From a virus: a stretch of DNA of 21,860 nucleotides. The DNA lies in IMG/VR virus record IMGVR_UViG_3300045257_000161, positions 1 through 21,860 of that record. One strand, 5' to 3'. The notes below the pieces were generated by a model. The model ran no database searches and was not told the DNA's origin. It saw only the letters and a program-made list of their open reading frames with translations. The translations under genes and the position numbers were made by a program. Shown piece after piece: positions 4,428-21,860 of this stretch (positions within the stretch are counted from its first letter, which is position 1; every line of letters starts with the position of its first letter).

Positions 4428-4646
4428 CTACGCAGCCTTCTTCTCGTCGCCCCAGATGTCGGGACGAAGATCACCGCGCTTGACGGCGCCGTTGGTGATG
4501 CGCTCGATATCCGAGCAACGCTCGTGCGGGACTTTTCCCCTCCGGCGCCACTCCGAGATGGATGGAGACTTGATATCGAGCGCGGCGGCGAAAGCCTCTT
4601 GCGTCTCAAAAATCGCGATTGCGCGGTCCAAGGCTTCGATGCTCAT
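4428..4646 (-). CDS. Cro-like HTH transcriptional regulator (YdaS/Cro type)
   Basis: The 72-residue protein carries a helix-turn-helix at about residues 15-37 (TQEAFAAALDIKSPSISEWR), followed by a VPHERCSDIERITNGAVKRGDLRPDIW segment. That segment is characteristic of Cro and YdaS-like regulators of lambdoid phages. I chose ATG at 4644-4646; a TTG three codons upstream would lie at the promoter -10. It is the first gene of the leftward operon, as cro is in lambda. It likely binds the TTAGG-N5-CCTAA operators directly upstream and represses both early promoters, including its own. The putative leftward -10 lies only 7 nt before the ATG, so the transcript may have almost no leader, and no ribosome site is visible. 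No CI partner is encoded next to it. Confidence 0.82.
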   Translation of the reverse strand: MSIEALDRAIAIFETQEAFAAALDIKSPSISEWRRRGKVPHERCSDIERITNGAVKRGDLRPDIWGDEKKAA

Positions 4647-4653
4647 GGCGCGC

Positions 4654-4683
4654 AATTTAGGCGTTCCCTAATCTGTTTGTCAA
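4654..4683 (-). promoter_or_regulatory. Leftward early promoter (PR-like)
   Basis: On the reverse strand a perfect -35 TTGACA (4678-4683) is followed 18 nt later by TAAATT (4654-4659), a fair -10. One operator lies across the spacer and -10 (4657-4671) and another abuts the -35 (4683-4697), so binding would block RNA polymerase. The predicted start point falls at or next to the ATG of the Cro-like gene. Confidence 0.65.
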
Positions 4684-7294: not shown

Positions 7295-7738
7295 ATGGCC
7301 AAACGAAAGGCGGCAATGGATCGCTTTGTGAAGCTCTCGGAGACAGGCGCCGAATTGCCTACAAAGGCGAAGGAATGGGCGCAGGTCCTGGATCGAGAAT
7401 CGGGCCTGATCTGGGCCGCGGATACGATCGGTGCTCGCTGCAATTGGGCACAGGCGAAGTCTGCCGCTTCTGCGGTGCGCATCGGCGAGCATGCCGATTG
7501 GCGCTTGCCGACGATCAAGGAACTTCTGAGCCTGGTCGACTACGAGCGGTTCAGCCCTGCGATCGACACTGCGTTCTTCAAGTGCGAGTCGAACTGGTAT
7601 TGGTCGATCACGCCGGATGCGTCGTCGCCCGGCGGCTTCGCGTGGAGCGTCTTCTTCGACAGCGGCGACGCCGACTTCAGCGGCCAGAGCTACGCGGCGT
7701 TCGTGCGGCCGGTGCGCTCCGCGCGCGCCAGTCAGTAA
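7295..7738 (+). CDS. DGR variable protein 1 (DUF1566 / C-type-lectin-like)
   Basis: The 147-residue protein has the DUF1566 (Lcl C-terminal) signature: GLIWAAD near residue 37, a DWRLPT motif at 68-73 followed by IKELLSLVDY, then YWSITP, and FVRPVR near the end. DUF1566 proteins share the C-type-lectin or formylglycine-enzyme fold used by many DGR targets. Residues 109-146 are encoded by VR1, so the diversified surface is the C-terminal part of the domain. The ATG at 7295 has GGAG 7 nt upstream (7284-7287). There is no signal peptide or membrane segment. It is a single small domain without a virion-attachment region, so whether it joins the particle, stays in the cell or is displayed cannot be told. 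Confidence 0.9.
   Translation: MAKRKAAMDRFVKLSETGAELPTKAKEWAQVLDRESGLIWAADTIGARCNWAQAKSAASAVRIGEHADWRLPTIKELLSLVDYERFSPAIDTAFFKCESNWYWSITPDASSPGGFAWSVFFDSGDADFSGQSYAAFVRPVRSARASQ
7619..7732 (+). repeat. Variable repeat 1 (VR1)
   Basis: This 114-bp stretch matches the TR at 8693-8806 except at 16 positions, all adenines in the TR (to G, T or other bases). Changed codons include AAC to AGC, GAC, TTC, GGC and TAC, and two TAC to TTC. The A-free GC-rich 3' end (from gcgttcgtg to gcgcgcgcc) is identical and serves as the initiation-of-homing region. The match ends at the T of gccagt; the next base is C in the VR and G in the TR. Confidence 0.97.
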
Positions 7739-7749
7739 TTGGCCTTTTT
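7727..7749 (+). terminator. Hairpin plus T-run after VR1
   Basis: GCCAGT (7727-7732) pairs with ATTGGC (7738-7743), including one G-T pair, across the loop cagta; CTTTTT follows at 7744-7749. It spans the target 1 stop codon. An identical element follows VR2 but none follows the TR. It could be a weak Rho-independent terminator, or the DNA hairpin known downstream of VRs in the Bordetella phage DGR that promotes retrohoming, or both. Confidence 0.6.
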
Positions 7750-7766
7750 GCTTTAGGAGAGAATCA

Positions 7767-8177
7767 ATGAAATTCGAAAGGATCGGAAGCGACGGGCGCC
7801 CGCTGGGACAGCCGGCGCCCGCAGCTTTTCTCGATGTGAAATCCGGACTGATGTGGGCGTCAGAGGACTTGCCGAAAGAATTGAAGTGGAAGGAAGCCGG
7901 CGATGCATGTACTGCCTGTCGATGCGCAGGCTTCTCAGATTGGCGTCTGCCGACGCGCTTCGAACTTGAAACGCTGCTCGATCTGAGTCGGAGCGATCCG
8001 GCTGCCGATCCCGATCTCGGGCTGAAGTCAGCGTACTACTGGTCGAGTACGCCGCTGGCGTCGTCGCCCGGCGACTACGCGTGGGGCGTCCACTTCTACC
8101 TCGGCGGCGCCAACTACGACTACCAGGGCAGCACGGCGTTCGTGCGGCCGGTGCGCTCCGCGCGCGCCAGTCAGTAA
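7767..8177 (+). CDS. DGR variable protein 2 (DUF1566 / C-type-lectin-like)
   Basis: The start is the ATG at 7767, with AGGAGA at 7755-7760; the longer open frame upstream runs back through VR1 in the wrong frame and is rejected. The 136-residue protein shares the family layout with target 1: DVKSGLMWASE, DWRLPT at 58-63, YYWSSTP, and a C-terminal FVRPVRSARASQ. Outside the VR the two targets are clearly diverged, so they are old paralogues and not a recent copy. Residues 98-135 come from VR2. A small CTACRC cysteine cluster at about 48-53 has no equivalent in target 1. No signal peptide or membrane segment is visible. The binding partner is unknown. Confidence 0.9.
   Translation: MKFERIGSDGRPLGQPAPAAFLDVKSGLMWASEDLPKELKWKEAGDACTACRCAGFSDWRLPTRFELETLLDLSRSDPAADPDLGLKSAYYWSSTPLASSPGDYAWGVHFYLGGANYDYQGSTAFVRPVRSARASQ
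8058..8171 (+). repeat. Variable repeat 2 (VR2)
   Basis: This 114-bp copy differs from the TR at 13 positions, all TR adenines. Seven of ten TR AAC codons in the core are changed at one or both adenines to GGC, CAC, TAC, CTC, GAC or AGC, with a few left intact. The first TR codons (GAC TAC) are unchanged here though mutated in VR1, so the two targets were rewritten independently. The 18 bp after the match (cagtaattggcctttttg) are identical to those after VR1. Confidence 0.97.
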
Positions 8178-8188
8178 TTGGCCTTTTT
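8166..8188 (+). terminator. Hairpin plus T-run after VR2
   Basis: GCCAGT (8166-8171) and ATTGGC (8177-8182) form the same 6-bp stem as after VR1, followed by CTTTTT at 8183-8188. It lies 10 nt before the avd ATG, so if it stops transcription it would set the ratio of targets to Avd and RT. As a DNA cruciform it would mark VR2 as a homing target. Confidence 0.6.
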
Positions 8189-8198
8189 GTCACCGTAG

Positions 8199-8636
8199 AT
8201 GACCTACTCGCTGCCACCGATCGTGAAGCTGGCCGGCCGTGTGCTCAAGGAAATCGAGCTCGCGGTTCGGCAGTTTTCGCGTTACAACAAATACACGGTC
8301 GGGGCCGATCTGCGAGCTCACGCCATGCAGGTCTGCAAGACGGCGCAACGTGCATGGAGGAATCGTGCGCGTCAGGCCCAGCTCGTGACGCAGCTGGTAT
8401 GGGATATCGATGATCTGAGAACGGTGCTGCAGCTCGGCAGCGCCCTAAAAGTATTCGCGAGCTTTGCGCAGTTCGAAATGCTCGCGCGCTTGCTCTCCGA
8501 CCTCGGTAAGCAGGCCGGCGGCTGGCATCGACAGCATCACCCGAAGGGCCAGAATGCCGGCGCCGTCAGTGCGCCGCCGCAGCGTGCCCAGACACTGAGT
8601 GCTCCCGCCGCCTCGCAAGCTGAGGCACAAGCATGA
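8199..8636 (+). CDS. avd: DGR accessory variability determinant (Avd-like)
   Basis: The 145-residue protein begins TYSLPPIVKLAGRVLKEIEL and continues with a FSRYNKYTVGADLRAHAMQV segment and two more long amphipathic helices. This is the Avd pattern, a basic four-helix-bundle protein that forms a pentamer and binds the RT and TR RNA; it is required for cDNA synthesis in the Bordetella phage DGR. The first 105 residues cover the bundle; the Ala/Pro/Gln-rich tail is probably disordered. The ATG has no clear ribosome site and lies just after the VR2 hairpin, suggesting low expression. The stop overlaps the RT start as ATGA. Confidence 0.88.
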   Translation: MTYSLPPIVKLAGRVLKEIELAVRQFSRYNKYTVGADLRAHAMQVCKTAQRAWRNRARQAQLVTQLVWDIDDLRTVLQLGSALKVFASFAQFEMLARLLSDLGKQAGGWHRQHHPKGQNAGAVSAPPQRAQTLSAPAASQAEAQA

Positions 8637-9880
8637 CGACGCCACGCTACGTCACGACGAGCTGCGCGGCCGGATCGCAAGTGCAGGAGCGAGCGTCGTC
8701 GCCCGGCGACTACGCGTGGAACGTCAACTTCAACAACGGCAACGCCAACTACAACAACCAGAACAACACGGCGTTCGTGCGGCCGGTGCGCTCCGCGCGC
8801 GCCAGTGAGTGTCGGGGTGAGGGGCAGGTCAGCTTTCAGGAATTGCACGCGGCATGGCAGCTGGCGCGCCGTCGCAAGGTGCCGAGTGATAACCAACTGG
8901 CCTTCGAGTCGAATTGGATCGGTGGGTTGATCGATCTGCAACGGCAGATCAATCGCGGTACCTGGACACCGCGCCCGCCCACATGCTTTATCGCGAAACG
9001 GCCGAAGGCTCGCGAAATCCATGCGCCAGATTTCGCTGATCGTGTGGTGCATCACTGGCTTGTGCCGAAGCTCGAGGCGCTGTTCGAGGCCGGCTTCATC
9101 TTCGACAGCTACGCCAATCGCACAGGGAAGGGCACGCATGCAGCCGTGAACAGGCTGCGGGGCTTTGTTCGACAGATAGACAGCGGGCAAGGTGGTGGCT
9201 GGTACCTGCAGCTCGACGTCCGAAACTTCTTCAACTCGATCCACCGACCGACGCTGTACGCGACACTGAAGCGACGGATGGATCGGGAACACGTGCCGGA
9301 AATCGTGCAGCGTGTGACACACGCTCTGCTGGCACGCTCACCCCTGAGTTATGGTGTCCACCACCGAGCCACCGCCGGCGAACTTGCCCAGGTGCCTCCG
9401 CATAAGCGGCTGGAGAACGCCGAGCCAGGCTGCGGTCTGCCGATCGGAAACCTCTCCAGCCAGTTCTTCGCGAATGTCTACCTCGATCGACTCGACCAGT
9501 TCGTCAAGCACGAACTGCGGGCCGCGCGATATCTTCGCTACGTCGATGACTTCGTGCTCGTGCATCGTGACCGCGCGCAACTTGAGGAATGGCGAGCACG
9601 CATCGAATCGTTCCTCCGCTCGACCCTGCGTCTTGAATTGAAGGCCGACGTTCGGCTGAGGCCGCTCAGCGCCGGCATCGACTTCCTCGGTTATGTCGTC
9701 TATCCCACGCACACGCGAGTTCGTCGTCGCGTAGTGCGACATGCGGTGAAGGCACTGGCGGCAAAAGCCACAGGCCGCGATGCGCACGAACGCCGTGCTT
9801 CGGTGCTGGCCAGCTACCTCGGGCACTTCGCGCATGCGAATGCGCATCGGCTATCCGAATTTCTTAGGAGAATGCAATGA
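8633..9880 (+). CDS. DGR reverse transcriptase with TR-encoded N-terminus
   Basis: The 415-residue protein has the RT palm motifs: LQLDVRNFF with the first aspartate at 195, GLPIGNLSSQ at 268-277 with the SQ that marks DGR RTs in place of the usual QG, and the catalytic YVDD at 303-306. Motif similarity starts near residue 67 (VSFQELHAAWQLARRRK). Residues 21-58 are encoded by the TR in the same frame as the targets. ATG 8633 overlaps the avd stop (ATGA) and follows a GAGG at a good distance. There is no ATG between the TR and the RT domain, only a TTG without a ribosome site. The enzyme therefore probably carries an Asn-rich TR-encoded extension. The stop overlaps the next gene's ATG. Confidence 0.94.
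   Translation: MTTPRYVTTSCAAGSQVQERASSPGDYAWNVNFNNGNANYNNQNNTAFVRPVRSARASECRGEGQVSFQELHAAWQLARRRKVPSDNQLAFESNWIGGLIDLQRQINRGTWTPRPPTCFIAKRPKAREIHAPDFADRVVHHWLVPKLEALFEAGFIFDSYANRTGKGTHAAVNRLRGFVRQIDSGQGGGWYLQLDVRNFFNSIHRPTLYATLKRRMDREHVPEIVQRVTHALLARSPLSYGVHHRATAGELAQVPPHKRLENAEPGCGLPIGNLSSQFFANVYLDRLDQFVKHELRAARYLRYVDDFVLVHRDRAQLEEWRARIESFLRSTLRLELKADVRLRPLSAGIDFLGYVVYPTHTRVRRRVVRHAVKALAAKATGRDAHERRASVLASYLGHFAHANAHRLSEFLRRMQ
8693..8806 (+). repeat. Template repeat (TR), inside the RT reading frame
   Basis: The 114-bp TR holds 26 adenines, 20 of them in ten AAC codons, and encodes an Asn-rich peptide (AWNVNFNNGNANYNNQNN). Every A-containing codon (GAC, TAC, AAC, CAG, ACG, AGT) yields no stop codon whatever base replaces the A. 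The 3' end is GC-rich and A-poor as in the VRs, but it is followed by gagtgtcgg instead of the cagtaattggc hairpin, which would protect it from being a homing target. Confidence 0.97.
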
Positions 9881-14115: not shown

Positions 14116-14645
14116 AGAAACAGTGCCTGATCGAGCACGTCAACGTCAGACGTCCGAGCAATGACGATTCGCCGGTCGCGGTCGACATCAAGATTTCCGT
14201 CGATGACTTGCCGGCGAAGGCTGCAGCGTTCGTGCTGCGTGCGGATAATGTCGAAGACGTCACCAACGCGTTCTTCGCAAATGACGAGGATCAGAACAAG
14301 CGTTTCCTCGGTCTGAGCGAAATTCCGATTGATGAATCGTGGGAAGGCCGCCACCAGATTAAGGTGTCGAGCCTGGCCAAGCTGCGCGTCGTGAAGCTGT
14401 TCAACATCAAGCTCACGCCGCGCGCGAAGGGCCTGTTCAACGCAGTGTTCACGGCGACCGTCGAGGATCCGCCGGAGAATTATATCGATGCGCTCTCCAA
14501 GCGTCTGCACACGTCGACGTCGGTCTTGCTTGAGCAAGACCCGGAACTCGACCTGAAGCAGCCGACCGACAAGCCAGGTGAGGCAGGCAAGCGCCCAGGT
14601 AGGGTCTCGAAGCGCGAGCCGTCGCAGCAGCAGTTGGTCAACTGA
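14103..14645 (+). CDS. Conserved-looking phage protein of unknown function
   Basis: The start at 14103 (MFELKKQCLIEHVNVRRPSN) has AGGAGA at 14091 and overlaps the HNH-like end by 13 nt; a longer frame is rejected. The 180-residue protein is mostly beta-strand-like (VAVDIKISVDDL, HQIKVSSLAKLRVVKLFNIK, FNAVFTATVEDP), with an unstructured basic tail (KPGEAGKRPGRVSKREP). Proteins of this look accompany annealase/exonuclease genes in several phages, without a known role. An ssDNA-binding function is conceivable from its place and its tail but no OB-fold motif is clear. The stop overlaps the methyltransferase ATG (TGATG). Confidence 0.65.
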   Translation: MFELKKQCLIEHVNVRRPSNDDSPVAVDIKISVDDLPAKAAAFVLRADNVEDVTNAFFANDEDQNKRFLGLSEIPIDESWEGRHQIKVSSLAKLRVVKLFNIKLTPRAKGLFNAVFTATVEDPPENYIDALSKRLHTSTSVLLEQDPELDLKQPTDKPGEAGKRPGRVSKREPSQQQLVN

Positions 14646-16369
14646 TGGCCGACGGCAACGCTATCGTCGCGCGTAGCAGCGGTCTGAGGCCGCTGCTCAT
14701 GGCCGATCTATTCTGCGGCGCCGGCGGCTCAAGCTCCGGCGCAGTCCGCGCTATCCGCGAACTCGGCCGGGAACCGGTGCTCGTTGCCGTCAACCATTGG
14801 CAAATCGCGATCGACACGCACACGCGGAACCATCCGTGGGCGCGGCATCATTGCACCGACCTCGAGCACGCGAAGCCGCGCGAGCTCGTGCCTGAGGGCC
14901 GGCTCGATCTATTGATCGCATCGCCAACGTGCACGTTCCACAGTCGCGCGCGCGGCGGTCGCCCGATCCACGATCAGCAGCGCATGGATCCATGGCACGT
15001 CGTGCGCTGGTGCACCGATCTGCGCGTGTCGCGCCTCCTGGTCGAAAACGTTCCTGAGTTCGTGGACTGGGGTCCGTGCAGCCTGCAGACAGGCAGGCCG
15101 ATGCTGGCTCGCAAGGGCGAGTACTTCCGCGCCTGGTGTGCCGCGCTGCAGGCGATTGGATTCCGGATCGACTATGACGTGCTGTGCTGCGCGAACTACG
15201 GCGACCCGACGACGCGCGAACGGTTCTTCCTGATCGGCCGCAGCGATCGCGGCAAACTGCGCTGGCCAGAGCCGACGCATGCGAAAGGTGGCGCGGCCGA
15301 TCTGCTCGGCGCTCGGGCCCGCTGGCGCGCCGCGGCTGAGATCATCGACTGGACGATTCCCGGGAAGTCCATATTCACGCGCAAGCGGCCGCTGAAGCCG
15401 AACACGCTGCGCAGGATCCTCGCCGGTGCGATCCGCTACGGTTGGCCGCAGGTCTACGTCGACGCCCTGCAGGCGCTATTGAACGGGCGCACGCCGCGGC
15501 TGGACGTCTCGGCCGAGGAAGCCGCGCCATTCCTGCTGAGGATGCGCGGCACACATGCGCATGCGATCGCGGGCTCAGGGATCAGCACAAATCAACCGGT
15601 TCCAGCGTTGAGCGCTGGCGGCGGGCATATCGGCCTCGTGATGGCGACCGGAGCCGGCGGCGTCGCGCGTGATCTGAATCAGCCGATCCCGACCGTCACG
15701 GCCGGCGGCGATGGCGGTGCGCGGCCTCATCTGATCGAGCCTCTGCTGATGGGTGGCCAGAGCAACGCGACCGCCAAGCCGGTCAGCAATCCGGCGCCGG
15801 CCGTGACGACTGTCGCCAGGCAGCAGCTAATCGAGCCGCTCATCGCGCCCTACTACGGCGGCGGCAGCGGACTGACTTCGAAGCCGGCCAGTGAGCCGCT
15901 CGATGCCGTGACCACGAAGGCGCGCTTCGGTGTGGCGCAGCCGCTGATCGTCAGCACCAGCAACTCGAGCAGCCCAGGCATTCCGCGCGAGGCCTCCGAT
16001 CCGCTGCGCACGATCACGACGGCGAAGGGCGGCGACATGGCGGTTGCAGCGCCCTTCATCCTGCCGGTCACGCATCACGGCGACGTGCGCACGCACGCGC
16101 TTGATGATCCCATGCCGACGGTCACCGGTGCGCACCGCGGCGAACTCGGGCTCGTGCGGCCGGAATTCGAACCGTGCGACTACCGCATCGACATCCTCTA
16201 CCGGATGCTCCACTGGCGCGAACTCGCGCGCGCAATGTCCTTCGACGTCGACGGCGAGGTCTACGAGTTCGCCGGCAATGCGACAGAGATCACGAAGCAG
16301 ATCGGGAACGCGGTGCCCGGGAGAACTGCGAAGGCGCTGGTGCGATCGCTCTTGAAGGATGCGGCGTGA
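14645..16369 (+). CDS. C5-cytosine DNA methyltransferase with repeat-rich variable region
   Basis: The 574-residue protein has motif I DLFCGAGGSSSG (from D21), motif IV as SPTC with the catalytic Cys96 (in place of the usual PPCQ), motif VI ENV (134-136), motif VIII RERFFLIGR (191-199), and motifs IX-X near the end (NATEITKQIGNAVPGRTAKA). It transfers methyl groups to cytosine C5, probably shielding phage DNA from host restriction or modifying it for packaging. Between about residues 310 and 500 it carries six or so degenerate repeats of the form D/xP-x-P-T-V-T-x-x ... PLI (for example NQPIPTVTAGGDGG, SEPLDAVTTKARFG, DDPMPTVTGAHRG). They replace a normal target recognition domain. No restriction gene is beside it. 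Confidence 0.92.
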   Translation: MADGNAIVARSSGLRPLLMADLFCGAGGSSSGAVRAIRELGREPVLVAVNHWQIAIDTHTRNHPWARHHCTDLEHAKPRELVPEGRLDLLIASPTCTFHSRARGGRPIHDQQRMDPWHVVRWCTDLRVSRLLVENVPEFVDWGPCSLQTGRPMLARKGEYFRAWCAALQAIGFRIDYDVLCCANYGDPTTRERFFLIGRSDRGKLRWPEPTHAKGGAADLLGARARWRAAAEIIDWTIPGKSIFTRKRPLKPNTLRRILAGAIRYGWPQVYVDALQALLNGRTPRLDVSAEEAAPFLLRMRGTHAHAIAGSGISTNQPVPALSAGGGHIGLVMATGAGGVARDLNQPIPTVTAGGDGGARPHLIEPLLMGGQSNATAKPVSNPAPAVTTVARQQLIEPLIAPYYGGGSGLTSKPASEPLDAVTTKARFGVAQPLIVSTSNSSSPGIPREASDPLRTITTAKGGDMAVAAPFILPVTHHGDVRTHALDDPMPTVTGAHRGELGLVRPEFEPCDYRIDILYRMLHWRELARAMSFDVDGEVYEFAGNATEITKQIGNAVPGRTAKALVRSLLKDAA

Positions 16370-17626: not shown

Positions 17627-17892
17627 TGCGCACGCGTCCAATGTTCACTCCGGTAAAGCTCTGGTACGTGACGCTGCGCGCGCCTCTGGCCGGGCAATTT
17701 ATCCAAGCGCAAACGCGGGGTAAATCGACATATCTGATCCAGACCGCGCGCAAGAGCCCGAGCCATCGAGGCCGCTGGAATCTTGCCTGCGTGCGCTGGC
17801 CACCGAACGAAATCCCCGAGGGCAGCATCGTGCTGCCGCTGCATTGGTTCAAACGAGAGCGCCGTCGCGGCGCAAGGATTCGGAGCGCATGA
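17626..17892 (+). CDS. Small basic phage protein, 88 aa
   Basis: I start at the ATG at 17626, which overlaps the previous stop (TGATG); an open frame further upstream lies inside the DUF5131 gene. The product starts MRTRPMFTPVKLWYVTLRAP, has mixed strands and loops (STYLIQTARKSPSHRGRWNL) and a basic end (WFKRERRRGARIRSA). It is probably a small beta-rich nucleic-acid-binding type protein. No family is recognised. The stop overlaps the next start (ATGA). Confidence 0.58.
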   Translation: MRTRPMFTPVKLWYVTLRAPLAGQFIQAQTRGKSTYLIQTARKSPSHRGRWNLACVRWPPNEIPEGSIVLPLHWFKRERRRGARIRSA

Positions 17893-19616
17893 CGAAGCAA
17901 GTACTCCCGCCCGAAGCGCTGTCGCAGCACCTTGCGATCGTCGGCCGCACCGGCAGCGGAAAGACGTACACCGCGAAGGGCTTGGTCGAGCAGCTGCTCG
18001 AGGAGAAGCGCCGCGTGTGCATTCTCGACCCGACAGGCGCCTGGTATGGCCTGCGCTCATCGGCGGACGGCAAGCGCGCTGGCTATCCGGTCGCGGTGTT
18101 CGGCGGTGCGCATGGTGACGTGCCGATCGCTGACGGCTCCGGCGCCGCGCTGGCGAAGATCCTCGCCGCGAAGAACTTGCCGGCGATCATCGACCTGTCC
18201 GAGATGCTCATCGGGCAGCGGCATCGCTTCGTGACCGACTTCGCCGAGACGCTCTATCGTGACAACCGCGCGCCGCTGCACCTCGTTATCGACGAGGCCG
18301 ACGAGTTCTGCCCGCAAAACCCGATGCCCGAGACCAAACGGATGTTGCACCATGTCGACCGCATCGTGCGCCGCGGTCGCATCCGTGGGTTCCGAGTAAT
18401 GCTGATCACGCAGCGCCCGGCCGTGTTGCACAAAAACGTCCTGACACAAGCCAACACGCTGATCGCAATGCGCCTGACCGCGCCGCAGGACCGCAAGGCG
18501 ATCCTCGCATGGGTCGAAGGCCAGGCGGACGCCGGTCAGGCGAAGGCTGTGCTGGAATCGCTTGCACGCCTGCAGCGTGGCGAGGGCTGGGTCTGGGCGC
18601 CGGAGCATGACCTGCTCGAGCGCGTGCAGTTTCCGCGCATCCGGACCTTCGATAGCTCGCGCGCACCGGACGATGCGGAGACGATCGCCGAGCCAGCCAT
18701 GCTGGCCGACGTCGACCTGGGCGAGATCAAGGTGTCGTTCGCGGCAATCGAGGAAGAAGCGGCCGCCAATGACCCGCGCAAGCTGCATGCCGAGATCGCG
18801 CGACTGAAGCGCGAACTGGCCGCAGCAAAGTCCGATACGGGAATTCCCGCTTCGGAAGTAAAACAACGAGTTGCAGCCGCCGTTGCCGAAGCGCTCAAGC
18901 ATTCCAGTTCCGTTGTGAATAATTCTCGGAATATTTTGAGCGATGTTTCGCGCAAGGCGCTGCTCAAGATCGGAGAGATAGCGGCCAAGACGCTCGCGAC
19001 CGAGTCGCTCAACAGCGTTGAACACTTAACGAAACCAGCAGAAATGACCGGCACGCTAAAACCATCAGCCTCGGTCGCAAGACAAGCGCCCCTCAAAGTC
19101 GGGAGTAAAACCGGAAGTAGCGTCGCCACGGGCATCACGGCCCCGCAGCAGCGCATCCTCGACGTACTGGCACAGCTCGCGCTCTACGGGATCGAGGCGC
19201 CGGCGAAGGAGATGGTCGCCGCGCACGCCGGCGTCAGCCCTACGTCAGGAGGCTATTTCAACAACCTCGGGCGCTTGCGTGCTTCCGGCCTGGTCGATTA
19301 TCCGCAGCCAGGCGCAGTCGCGTTGAGCGATGCCGGGCGCGCAGCAGCGAATCATCCGGACCGCGCACCGACGCTCGACGAGTTGCACGAATCGTGGTTC
19401 GCAATTCTGCCGGCACCGCAAGCGGTGATCCTGCGCGCTGCAGTCGCAGCGTATCCACGTGCTATTCCGAAAGACGACCTTGCCGATGAAGTCGGCGTCT
19501 CGCGCACCAGCGGCGGGTATTTCAACAATCTGGGCCGGCTGCGCACGCTCGGTGCGATCGACTATCCGCAGAAGGGAACTGTGCGGGCCAGCGATATACT
19601 TTTCCCTAAGCCATGA
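17889..19616 (+). CDS. HerA/FtsK-like ATPase with tandem C-terminal winged helices
   Basis: The 575-residue protein has a Walker A motif GRTGSGKT (about 19-26), a Walker B segment HLVIDEADEF (131-140), and the TQRPAVLHKNVL sensor-like region (about 176-187). This fits HerA-type DNA-pumping or helicase ATPases (DUF87). A charged helical linker (about 280-320) and a Ser/Ala-rich spacer lead to two related units. One contains SPTSGGYFNNLGRLR and the other SRTSGGYFNNLGRLR, about 88 residues apart, each in a winged-helix context. The start (17889) overlaps the previous stop. HerA proteins usually pair with a NurA nuclease; none is visible here, so it may work with the YqaJ exonuclease or alone. 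A role in genome translocation or defence is open. Confidence 0.85.
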   Translation: MTKQVLPPEALSQHLAIVGRTGSGKTYTAKGLVEQLLEEKRRVCILDPTGAWYGLRSSADGKRAGYPVAVFGGAHGDVPIADGSGAALAKILAAKNLPAIIDLSEMLIGQRHRFVTDFAETLYRDNRAPLHLVIDEADEFCPQNPMPETKRMLHHVDRIVRRGRIRGFRVMLITQRPAVLHKNVLTQANTLIAMRLTAPQDRKAILAWVEGQADAGQAKAVLESLARLQRGEGWVWAPEHDLLERVQFPRIRTFDSSRAPDDAETIAEPAMLADVDLGEIKVSFAAIEEEAAANDPRKLHAEIARLKRELAAAKSDTGIPASEVKQRVAAAVAEALKHSSSVVNNSRNILSDVSRKALLKIGEIAAKTLATESLNSVEHLTKPAEMTGTLKPSASVARQAPLKVGSKTGSSVATGITAPQQRILDVLAQLALYGIEAPAKEMVAAHAGVSPTSGGYFNNLGRLRASGLVDYPQPGAVALSDAGRAAANHPDRAPTLDELHESWFAILPAPQAVILRAAVAAYPRAIPKDDLADEVGVSRTSGGYFNNLGRLRTLGAIDYPQKGTVRASDILFPKP

Positions 19617-19924
19617 GTGATATGAACCGCCAGCAGCTTTGCGCCGCACTCGCTATCAGCGAGTCCACGGTGCGACGCCTGGAGCTCGATGGTATGCCAT
19701 GCACGCCGATCGGGCGCAGCAAGCGGTATGATCTTGACGAAGTTAAGGGCTGGCTGCGGAGCCGCGAATGTCGACATGGACAGACAAAGACGGACGGCGC
19801 CATGTTGGCGTCATGGTCCAAAGCCGCCGAGTGCATCGCATCCTCCCGAAAGGTGCAACTGCGAGTGATGCCAAGCGGGCGGAATCTGCGATCCGTGAAA
19901 GCATCGGACGACAAAGCGGCGTAG
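19613..19924 (+). CDS. Excisionase-like helix-turn-helix protein
   Basis: The 103-residue protein has an HTH_17-type DNA-binding domain in its first 52 residues (NRQQLCAALAISESTVRRLE, then DGMPCTPIGRSKRYDLDEVKGW). This is the MerR-like wing fold of excisionases and AlpA-type proteins. The start overlaps the ATPase stop (ATGA). It lies just upstream of int and overlaps it by 157 nt in another frame, as xis precedes int in many phages. Its C-terminal half, read through the int start, is Ser/Lys-rich and probably poorly structured. A role as excisionase that bends attR is inferred from place and fold. Confidence 0.7.
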   Translation: MSDMNRQQLCAALAISESTVRRLELDGMPCTPIGRSKRYDLDEVKGWLRSRECRHGQTKTDGAMLASWSKAAECIASSRKVQLRVMPSGRNLRSVKASDDKAA

Positions 19925-20757
19925 CGATCCCGAGCGACCCGCCGCTGCCGACGGTCATGGACCTATACCTGAAACACGCGGAAGGTCTGCGCAGTTCGAA
20001 GACGGCGCGCTTTCATGCGCTGCGCGCCGTGCCGTGGATCGAAGGGTTTCGAGCCAGCCAGGCGCAACAGGCTGCCGCCACGATGGTTCAGGACATGCGC
20101 GGCCATTACGCCGTGGCTACCATCAATCGCAGCCTTGGAGCGCTCAAGAAGGCACTGGCGCTCGCCTGGGAGCGCGGCGTGACGCATGACCATCACGGTC
20201 TGCGTATCAAGCGCCTGCCGGAGAACAACGCGCGCGACGTCCATCTGTCGATCGAGCAGATCAAGTCGATTGCCGACGCGGCAAGCGAGCAGGTGCGCGC
20301 GGCAATATGGATTGCCCTGTTCACCGGCTGCCGGCGCGGCGAGATCCTCGCGCTACGAAAGGAAGACATTGGCGACGATGCTGTGCGCGTGCGCGCGGCG
20401 AGCACGAAGACGCAGCGCGCCAGGTCCGTGCCGATCGTAGCGCCGCTGCGCCCATGGCTCGGCTACCTTCCGCTGGCGCTGAATTTCGAGGGATTGAAGA
20501 CGGGATTCCGTCGTGCGCGTGAGACGGCGATGTTACCGCACGTCACGTTCCACGATCTGAGGCGATCGTGTGGCACTTTGATGGTGCAGGCAGGCGTCGA
20601 TCTGTATGTGGTGAGCAAGGTGCTCGGACATTCGAGTGTGAAGGTCACGGCCGATCGCTATGCGCACCTGCAGATCGATCGTATGAAAGAAGGATTGGAA
20701 CGAACTTTTGCACCGAGAATTACACAGGGCAAAAGGCGCACTCGAGTAAGTAACTGA
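19768..20757 (+). CDS. int: Tyrosine-family site-specific integrase
   Basis: The 329-residue protein has an N-terminal arm-binding-like part (STWTDKDGRRHVGVMVQSRR), a core-binding SAM-like domain (about 60-150) and the catalytic domain. The catalytic set is visible: R189 in FTGCRRGEILAL, K214 in ASTKTQR, H262 and R265 in HDLRRS, H288 in LGHSS, and the nucleophile Y298 in DRYAHL. It joins phage attP to a bacterial site by a Holliday-junction pathway. I keep the ATG at 19768 although it overlaps the HTH gene by 157 nt, because the family N-terminus begins there. The gene ends 5 nt before the tRNA-Val-derived core, so it recombines at that site. Confidence 0.95.
   Translation: MSTWTDKDGRRHVGVMVQSRRVHRILPKGATASDAKRAESAIRESIGRQSGVAIPSDPPLPTVMDLYLKHAEGLRSSKTARFHALRAVPWIEGFRASQAQQAAATMVQDMRGHYAVATINRSLGALKKALALAWERGVTHDHHGLRIKRLPENNARDVHLSIEQIKSIADAASEQVRAAIWIALFTGCRRGEILALRKEDIGDDAVRVRAASTKTQRARSVPIVAPLRPWLGYLPLALNFEGLKTGFRRARETAMLPHVTFHDLRRSCGTLMVQAGVDLYVVSKVLGHSSVKVTADRYAHLQIDRMKEGLERTFAPRITQGKRRTRVSN
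20711..20727 (+). repeat. Possible integrase arm site, left of core
   Basis: CACCGAGAATTACACAG inside the end of int recurs on the other side of the tRNA-like core as CACCGGAATTACACAG (20885-20900), differing by one inserted base. Paired direct repeats flanking a core are typical of integrase arm-binding sites. Confidence 0.45.
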
Positions 20758-21209: not shown

Positions 21210-21860
21210 TCAACTCAGGTTGATCGCGCCAGTATTCCACGGCAACACAATACTCCACGAAGCATTATTCGCAGCAAGTAGGAATTGGTTTGTGGTTCCG
21301 CTAGAGGGGAATGAATCTCCTACAGCAAGGGAAGGCGACGCTATCCACAAATCTTGCAAAGTGAACAACTTACCCCGCGCACCTGCCGTTGTTCCTGCTA
21401 TACCAGCGGGGAGTAAATCCCACGCTCCGTCCACTTCACTGGCAAACGATAAAAGTACATTTTGCTCAAATGTTACTAACGTCGCCGTGTTAACAGCATT
21501 TTGAAGCGTCCCACTGCCAGTTGCTAAATTTGGAGTGCCGGTTGCTATCCAAGAACCAAAACCGGAGTTATTTGCTCCCGGTGTTCCGCCAACAGGGTTC
21601 GCCCCTTTCTCAAAACATGCAAACATTCGCAGTGAGCCGGCTGCATAAAAAAACAGTCGCGTACATTGGCCGTCTGTCGACTGCTCCACGCTCCAGCGAT
21701 AGGCTAGGTCCGAGACGTTATTGTTCCAATTAAATCCAGTGCCGATTAAAATTACCTCATCCGTCGCTGTTGGATTCGCCGTTGTGCTGCCGCCTGTATA
21801 GCCTGCCGCTGTTGAGAAAGCGATTTTTGCCTGCCCGGCTGCGGCAGCGCCATTGTCAAA
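21210..21860 (-). CDS. Probable virion-associated protein, N-terminus missing
   Basis: The frame is open from 21860 to a stop at 21210 and continues beyond the right edge; the visible 216 residues include FDNGAAAAGQAKIAFSTAAG and later TDEVILIGTGFNWNNNVSDL. A GTG at 21687-21689 is an internal valine, not the start. The protein is Gly/Ala/Thr/Asn-rich and beta-like, with WRSVEQSTDG-type and SLRMFACFEKGANPVGGTPG segments that look like a phage tail, fibre or capsid-decoration protein. The composition and position at the end of a leftward operon next to attP suggest a late structural gene. I cannot name the protein. GC is near 50 percent by eye, lower than the rest. Confidence 0.55.
   Translation of the reverse strand, partial: FDNGAAAAGQAKIAFSTAAGYTGGSTTANPTATDEVILIGTGFNWNNNVSDLAYRWSVEQSTDGQCTRLFFYAAGSLRMFACFEKGANPVGGTPGANNSGFGSWIATGTPNLATGSGTLQNAVNTATLVTFEQNVLLSFASEVDGAWDLLPAGIAGTTAGARGKLFTLQDLWIASPSLAVGDSFPSSGTTNQFLLAANNASWSIVLPWNTGAINLS

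Follow-up and report, generated by a model that had tools for sequence, protein, structure and literature searches.

A two-target diversity-generating retroelement in the early operon of a temperate phage, with its template repeat inside the reverse transcriptase gene and a predicted RNA fold around it

The DGR locus

The window analysed is the entire virus record, a 21.9-kb fragment without structural genes; the phage may therefore carry a further target outside it. The diversity-generating retroelement (DGR) of the window includes: (i) two target genes, each with a variable repeat (VR), (ii) a gene for the Avd accessory protein and (iii) a reverse transcriptase (RT) gene that contains the template repeat (TR). 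The features, in order of position, are:

4428..4655, minus strand: Cro/repressor-type regulator (PHROG transcriptional repressor, 3e-18), in an immunity region flanked by two divergent early operons
7295..7738, plus strand: target protein 1, 147 aa, Lcl_C/DUF1566, C-type lectin fold (Pfam 3.1e-28)
7619..7732, plus strand: VR1, 16 changes, each on a TR adenine, altering 14 of 16 A-bearing codons
7733..7750, plus strand: 3' flank of VR1, CAGTAATTGGCCTTTTTG, a conserved target-site motif that contains the stop codon
7767..8177, plus strand: target protein 2, 136 aa, Lcl_C/DUF1566 (Pfam 1e-25)
8058..8171, plus strand: VR2, 13 changes, each on a TR adenine, altering nine codons
8172..8189, plus strand: 3' flank of VR2, a second copy of CAGTAATTGGCCTTTTTG
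8199..8636, plus strand: Avd accessory protein, 145 aa (PHROG 'Avd protein of DGR', 1.5e-14)
8633..9880, plus strand: RT open reading frame (ORF), 415 aa, with a leader (8633-8692), the TR (8693-8806) and the RT domain (from about 8822)
8693..8806, plus strand: TR, in frame inside the RT ORF
19768..20757, plus strand: tyrosine integrase (Pfam 2.9e-21, PHROG 1.5e-44), ending the rightward operon that holds the DGR

The VRs lie at the 3' ends of target genes for proteins of C-type lectin fold. The Avd gene also matches Pfam bAvd (4e-7), below the family cut-off. The RT matches RVT_1 (Pfam) and the PHROG RT family (9e-97) and has the motifs IGNLSSQ and YVDD. Its nearest solved relative is the bRT of BPP-1 (2e-38 vs 2.6e-13 for a group II intron RT), which appears to place it within the DGR clade and not outside, the outcome that would have counted against the original prediction. 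That prediction of a complete DGR, with a TR, two VRs, DUF1566 targets, Avd and a DGR-type RT, is borne out, and all of the ORFs are intact. Thus, by its sequence, the element is a genuine and complete DGR of an already known kind, and it is read here with high confidence as belonging to a temperate phage and lying in its lambda-pL-like early operon, with the mechanism and target role proposed below.

Adenine-only variation and the VR flank

Rerunning the alignment returns the predicted repeat coordinates, with the 114-bp VR1 and VR2 aligning to the TR with no gaps. Adenines account for 26 of the TR bases and other bases for 88. Relative to the TR, VR1 carries 11 A>G and five A>T changes, and VR2 eight A>G, three A>T and two A>C changes; as had been claimed, each of the 29 differences is at a TR adenine, while none of the 176 non-A positions of the two copies is changed. 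If differences were random, all 29 would fall on A with a probability of (26/114)^29, or ~2e-19. The VRs carry different changes, in agreement with the predicted independent variation of both targets. Ten TR codons are AAC, and an A>N change to a stop is possible in none of the TR codons.

The homology between TR and VRs ends sharply on either side, and the flanking DNA differs except for the 18-nt 3' flank common to VR1 and VR2. Among 96 VR flanks from 43 loci, the information of this motif is at background beyond about position 18, and the first base past the repeat is G in 43 of 43 TRs vs C in 96 of 96 VRs. A BPP-1-type hairpin after the VR (7-10 bp, GC-rich, 4-nt GRNA loop) was considered and rejected: the window has a weak 6-bp stem, one pair of which is G-T and the loop of which is 5 nt long, many relatives are without it, and the 18-nt sequence motif stands in its place. 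The shared VR flank, the overlap of TR with RT and the RNA structure were all absent from the original prediction.

The close relatives of the DGR are 47 loci, mostly Lysobacterales prophages, and the host of the phage is probably in Lysobacterales. The sharing of one TR by two small DUF1566 targets had been thought uncommon, which does not hold in this RT clade, where two or three VRs, and as many targets, go with each template in 45 of the 47 loci. Earlier reports (PMC3521204, PMC6642488) note multiple VRs in 1/7 to 28.6% of DGRs and describe five DUF1566 targets in one DGR of Stenotrophomonas; DGRs with several such targets, like the overlap of TR and RT, have already been published.

Target proteins and their genomic setting

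The predicted structure of target 1 is of high quality (AlphaFold2 mean pLDDT 92.4), with the C-terminal domain of Legionella Lcl (8q4e) as the best solved match. Searches with target 1 against phage records, and for near-identical DNA, returned zero matches, and comparing the target 1 and Avd sequences with those of solved structures gave no meaningful match.

The phage is temperate, since a tyrosine integrase closes the DGR operon. The targets are grouped with repressor, recombination and integrase genes, in line with the early-operon placement first proposed. Across nine phage genomes, complete or long, no VRs were found away from the DGR operon and its neighbourhood; where genes are annotated among these, the DGR operon is the early/lysogeny operon and none of the targets is a tail gene. 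Judging by this gene position and the lack of hydrophobic segments, the targets are probably binding proteins that are made early, are not part of the virion and act within the infected or lysogenic cell.

The alternative that survives best, although unlikely, is an ordinary BPP-1-like DGR, the small lectins of which bind receptors at the tail tip and are encoded by oddly placed genes. Tail proteins are the targets of most phage DGRs (PMC8144416), and the target fold is also found at phage tail fibre ends (in tail fibre, S74 peptidase and collagen-repeat proteins). By contrast, the targets here are without long N-terminal fibre parts, their genes keep company with those of repressor and integrase, complete genomes have zero VRs in tail genes, and in phages Magia, Haboob and G008 the targets are on the strand opposite to the structural genes. 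Less probable again are lysogenic-conversion or superinfection-exclusion proteins, exposed on the host surface or exported. Such a role would suit a temperate phage with its operon between immunity region and integrase, and cellular DGR targets are frequently surface proteins (PMC8144416); however, no hydrophobic stretch is present, the highest 19-residue Kyte-Doolittle means being 0.63 (target 1) and 0.57 (target 2).

Translation of the TR within the RT frame

The RT frame opens upstream of the TR and continues through it in all 47 relatives, and every locus has, ahead of the TR, a start codon in the leader with an SD-like site. The avd stop overlaps the RT start as ATGA, an overlap that keeps its offset in 46 of 47 loci. 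The gap from TR to RT domain is 15 nt in the window and 4-30 nt across the 47 loci, and a structured spacer of the BPP-1 type was not found between them. The leader is likely translated because its frame and start are conserved; selection on amino acids is not the argument, as the leader pN/pS of ~0.66 is weak as a protein constraint, and conservation of the leader mainly as protein is unsupported.

It is improbable that the TR lies within the RT ORF by chance only, with frames staying open in G+C-rich DNA and the leader untranslated. The leader, TR and post-TR bases are conserved also at silent sites, as an RNA would be; yet the start codon and SD-like site are universal and the avd overlap nearly so, the distance from start to domain takes 16 different values that are each a multiple of 3, two loci (L008 and L061) have a shifted TR frame with a nonetheless continuous ORF, and 23 loci have no in-frame start after the TR.

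A predicted RNA fold around the TR

Four covarying RNA helices surround the TR:

8591..8598 (avd 3' end) with 8806..8813, plus strand: helix P1, 99.7% of cells paired
8602..8608 with 8683..8689, plus strand: helix P2, both-sided changes in 7 of 7 pairs
8610..8626 (8610-8613 with 8623-8626), plus strand: hairpin P3, the 3' strand of which is GAGG, the RT ribosome-binding site
8641..8670 (8641-8643 and 8645-8647 with 8664-8666 and 8668-8670), plus strand: hairpin P4, within the RT leader

P1 encloses the leader and TR, its 3' strand consisting of the last TR base and the GAGTGTC right after the TR. Overall, 97.8% of cells are paired, with 106 both-sided changes vs 24 in shuffles, and pairing falls to 22-52% when the helices are slid. 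The 23 loci outside the derivation of the fold are 97.4% paired, with 60 both-sided changes. Since the covarying fold encloses leader and TR, the structured part of the template RNA in this clade would lie 5' of the TR (avd end and RT leader), tied to the TR 3' end by P1. P3 is predicted to hide the RT ribosome-binding site, so one transcript may serve as either RT mRNA or folded template.

Silent-site conservation is 0.57-0.9 and then drops to 0.38 at the RT domain, on which grounds an RNA core within the RT 5' coding region was rejected. Rfam gave zero matches for the window and the RNA element, and a promoter and terminator scan was near chance.

Re-diversification among relatives

The VRs of related phages differ almost only at TR-A positions. 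Homology-anchored pairs form the fair test of this bias: L021 and L067 have RTs 99.9% identical and identical TRs, while one VR differs at 16 A and 0 non-A positions, and the VRs of L005 and L017 differ at 16 of 24 A vs 0 of 86 non-A positions. The totals (1247/2174 A vs 18/7807 non-A) were obtained with a finder in which non-A mismatches carry a penalty. Non-A changes as frequent as A changes in related genomes, named beforehand as evidence against a DGR, are thus not seen, and the DGR family can be taken as active; that of this phage is probably active as well. A dead DGR with old variation is very improbable, for although this phage is represented by one genome, its ORFs are all intact, its non-A positions have not drifted and relatives with near-identical RTs have different VRs.

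Proposed mechanism and comparison with known DGRs

As in other DGRs, an RT-Avd complex would reverse-transcribe the TR RNA, making errors at adenines, and the 3' end of either target gene would be replaced by the resulting cDNA to give new lectin-fold variants. Translation of avd may open P3, such that the transcript serves as RT mRNA; otherwise, it would be the folded template. Tentatively, and as a possibility short of probable, a class of DGR is proposed in which a long-range helix closes a 5' structured core (avd end and RT leader) onto the 3' end of the TR, with the RT start inside the fold, so that the transcript is either RT mRNA (with translated TR as N-terminus) or template, and in which the targets are early intracellular binders, e.g., against host defence or competing phages.

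The Bordetella phage BPP-1 (mtd-avd-TR-brt) shares with this DGR the order VR, avd, TR and RT, the adenine-only change, a C-type lectin target and the nearest RT. BPP-1 differs in its single tail-fibre target, structured 3' spacer between TR and brt, and GC-rich GRNA-loop hairpin after the VR (PMC12875486, PMC3240598), in place of which are two early-operon targets, a 5' RNA fold with no such spacer, and a sequence-conserved VR flank. BPP-1 also requires RNA downstream of its TR, and, unlike here, its TR is not inside the RT ORF. The Quimbyvirus DGR (PMC8008677) similarly has a hypervariable phage protein encoded outside the structural module, near defence-type genes; however, one of its two targets is beside tail genes, whereas the VRs of near-complete relatives here are all outside the structural module. 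Stenotrophomonas SKA14 (PMC6642488) has several DUF1566 targets and DiGReF group 3 (PMC3521204) has TRs that overlap the end of the RT ORF; the available parts of these two reports include no test of TR translation and describe no RNA fold. The DGR, although of a known kind, is distinguished by its early-operon targets and by a TR that lies in the RT gene within a newly inferred RNA fold, the fold being apparently new as judged against a partial literature check of RNA architecture.

Phage DGRs are known mainly as diversifiers of tail fibres. Small lectin-fold targets, detected only in early operons across a clade of Lysobacterales temperate phages, point to targeted hypermutation for another purpose, e.g., intracellular arms races. 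The covarying fold suggests a second way of building DGR template RNA and predicts sites of priming and RT recognition where a 3' spacer is absent, while an arrangement this compact, with an 18-nt target flank and a 5' RNA core, may be usable for testing DGRs. A related DGR clade is present in Burkholderia and Pseudomonas phages. Burkholderia phage Magia (MT701587, PMC7883833), the RT of which is ~42% identical to the RT here, is likewise temperate, with a DGR in an early/lysogeny operon, small lectin targets and a TR within the annotated RT CDS. Its published annotation lists genes 47 and 57 as targets (PMC7883833); gene 46 is found here to be a third DGR target.

Adenine-only variation in two targets

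The window carries a genuine diversity-generating retroelement (DGR) with two targets, an accessory protein (Avd) and a template repeat (TR) inside the reverse transcriptase (RT) ORF at 8633-9880:

7295-7738, + strand, target 1, Lcl_C/DUF1566 protein (family search)
7619-7732, + strand, variable repeat VR1 (gap-free alignment to TR)
7767-8177, + strand, target 2, Lcl_C/DUF1566 protein (family search)
8058-8171, + strand, variable repeat VR2 (gap-free alignment to TR)
8199-8636, + strand, Avd (profile match)
8693-8806, + strand, TR (gap-free alignment to both VRs)

Realignment of the repeats matches the coordinates of the original prediction exactly and bears out its claim of adenine-only variation: TR differs from VR1 at 16 positions and from VR2 at 13, and 29/29 differences fall on the 26 TR adenines, with none at the other 88 positions in either copy (computed chance probability of all 29 on adenines ~2e-19). 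Ten TR codons are AAC, an A>N change yields a stop in no TR codon, and the altered residues number 14 in target 1 and nine in target 2. The RT, with motifs IGNLSSQ and YVDD, is of the predicted DGR type; in a search of solved structures its best relative is the bRT of Bordetella phage BPP-1 (2e-38; structure 8ub7, the BPP-1 enzyme), ahead of a group II intron RT in second place (2.6e-13). The window DGR is probably active.

Pairs of related phages provide a fair test of activity, because VR extents were set by homology, and non-A substitutions were looked for in these relatives; A positions dominate. In L021/L067, related loci with 99.9% RT identity and identical TRs, one VR has 16 A and 0 non-A differences, with 7 differences in 200 in the flanks. 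Between L005 and L017, a VR has changes at 16/24 A positions and at 0/86 of the others. Paired comparisons among L011, L012 and L022 give 9-18 changes at the 23 A positions and 1-3 at the 87 non-A positions. The 25 non-A differences in one L005/L017 comparison stem from a register shift at a 3-base deletion, which leaves the L017 target one residue shorter there. Recurrent re-diversification of VRs is evident from sequence comparison of these relatives.

Number, place and nature of the targets

TR/VR pairs were scanned in 47 loci with RT identity of about 57% or more (the window, L002-L022 and L046-L070). Two VRs are found in 34 loci, three in 11 and one in 2; therefore, the multi-target layout is the rule in this RT clade, contrary to the original prediction, which held two DUF1566 targets sharing one TR to be uncommon. 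Multi-VR DGRs and multiple DUF1566 targets are also described in earlier reports (PMC3521204, PMC6642488).

The window, an entire IMG/VR record of 21,860 bases, has a Cro/repressor-type gene at 4428-4655. Leftward genes include primosome, DnaB, NinB and Holliday-resolvase genes, while the rightward genes are small ORFs, the DGR, a DUF1351 protein, Erf, exonuclease, DNA methyltransferase, HerA-like ATPase and integrase. The arrangement resembles the divergent pR and pL operons of phage lambda; the counterpart of pL holds the DGR in its accessory part. The 21,860-base contig yielded no identified structural genes. In phages Magia and Haboob and the relative genome G008, repressor, recombination or integrase genes accompany the DGR cassette, which lies on the opposite strand from tail and head genes. 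A search of nine genomes, three of them from isolate phages (Magia, LPPA56 and Haboob) and six of them long IMG/VR records, found no VR beyond the DGR operon and its neighbourhood. While Benler et al. (PMC8008677) describe one phage DGR target of non-structural sort, such targets are here clade-wide and, as far as seen, exclusive; this early-operon target set merits follow-up.

The structure model of target 1 predicts a C-type lectin fold with high confidence (pLDDT 92.4), nearest to the C-terminal domain of Legionella Lcl. Virion-associated targets are possible; gene position and the absence of hydrophobic segments in a sequence scan instead favour early intracellular binding proteins. Some upstream targets of relatives (L004, L005, L007, L013, L017, L019 and L021) have an N-terminal extension of ~40-100 aa before the lectin domain (e.g., MNQITIHVAGN...), possibly an oligomerisation or docking part.

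The nearest bacterial-genome RTs, from Arenimonas, Rhodanobacter, Stenotrophomonas, Lysobacter, Dyella, Pseudoxanthomonas and Xanthomonas, suggest where the host lies. In the early operon, the HerA/FtsK-like ATPase (17844-19616) comes after the methyltransferase region and before the integrase, and G008 has a similar gene between DGR and integrase (L132 14648-16432). Past the integrase, an open-ended ORF on the opposite, minus strand (21210-21860), with no PHROG match, may be host DNA beyond an attachment site or another phage gene.

Likely translation through TR, and the RNA fold

TR is fused in frame to RT. Each of the 47 loci has an RT-frame start codon ~57 nt upstream of TR, accompanied by an SD-like site; in 46/47, the avd stop and this start share an ATGA overlap at a constant offset. 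The start-to-RT-domain distance falls into 16 classes (156-216 nt), every one a multiple of 3; an in-frame start after TR is absent in 23 of the 47 loci and is ATG in only two. In L008 (7806-7975) and L061 (9827-9996), the RT ORF uses a TR frame other than that of the targets but is uninterrupted from leader through RT. Thus, RT is very likely translated through TR, though the leader is under little amino-acid constraint (pN/pS = 0.66). The overlap itself is known from DiGReF group 3 (PMC3521204).

Silent-site identity is elevated over the leader, TR and the first bases 3' of TR, and falls at the RT domain. Alignment of 43 loci gives four helices:

8591-8598 with 8806-8813, P1
8602-8608 with 8683-8689, P2
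8610-8613 with 8623-8626, P3
8641-8647 with 8664-8670, P4

P1 joins the avd 3' end to the bases immediately 3' of TR, and P3 contains the RT ribosome-binding site. The fold covaries: 97.8% of cells are paired (slid controls, 22-52%), 16/24 pairs have both-sided changes, and cells with such changes number 106 versus 24 in shuffles. In 23 loci outside the fold derivation, 97.4% are paired, with 60 both-sided changes. Rfam searches of the window and RNA element gave no match. By contrast to BPP-1, which requires a structured 3' spacer (PMC12875486), the fold of this clade involves the avd end and 5' leader, an RNA architecture that merits follow-up. The related Pseudomonas/Burkholderia/Magia clade has the same topology: its 5' leader is folded, and the TR 3' end takes part in an AUCUG/CAGAU pairing that is nearly invariant and, thus, lacks covariation support. 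Pseudomonas/Burkholderia loci (L023-L045, L089-L107) have their own strongly conserved folded leader 5' of TR.

The base after the repeat is C in 96/96 VRs and G in 43/43 TRs. The VR flank consensus CAGTAATTGGCCTTTTTG runs beyond the stop codon, with information content at background beyond about position 18. The GC-rich GRNA hairpin of BPP-1 type is not present after VR; the flank motif, found instead, is likely the target-site determinant. RT-Avd would bind the 5' fold and P1 would present the TR 3' end for the cDNA start, while ribosomes completing avd would open P3 and then translate RT, which would unfold that transcript as template.

Further targets in isolate phages

Magia (MT701587; L144) has a third DGR target in gene 46 (32316-32780), which carries the annotation 'hypothetical protein'. 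Its VR (32336-32425) differs from TR (31692-31781) at 11 positions, 11/11 on TR adenines; genes 47 and 57 are the only targets given in the Magia publication. The DGR targets of Pseudomonas aeruginosa phages LPPA56 and Haboob are likewise annotated merely as hypothetical proteins:

28487-28586, LPPA56 (L145) VR, A/non-A differences from TR 14/0
29173-29272, LPPA56 VR, 14/0
14199-14301, Haboob (L146) VR, 18/0
14912-15011, Haboob VR, 13/0
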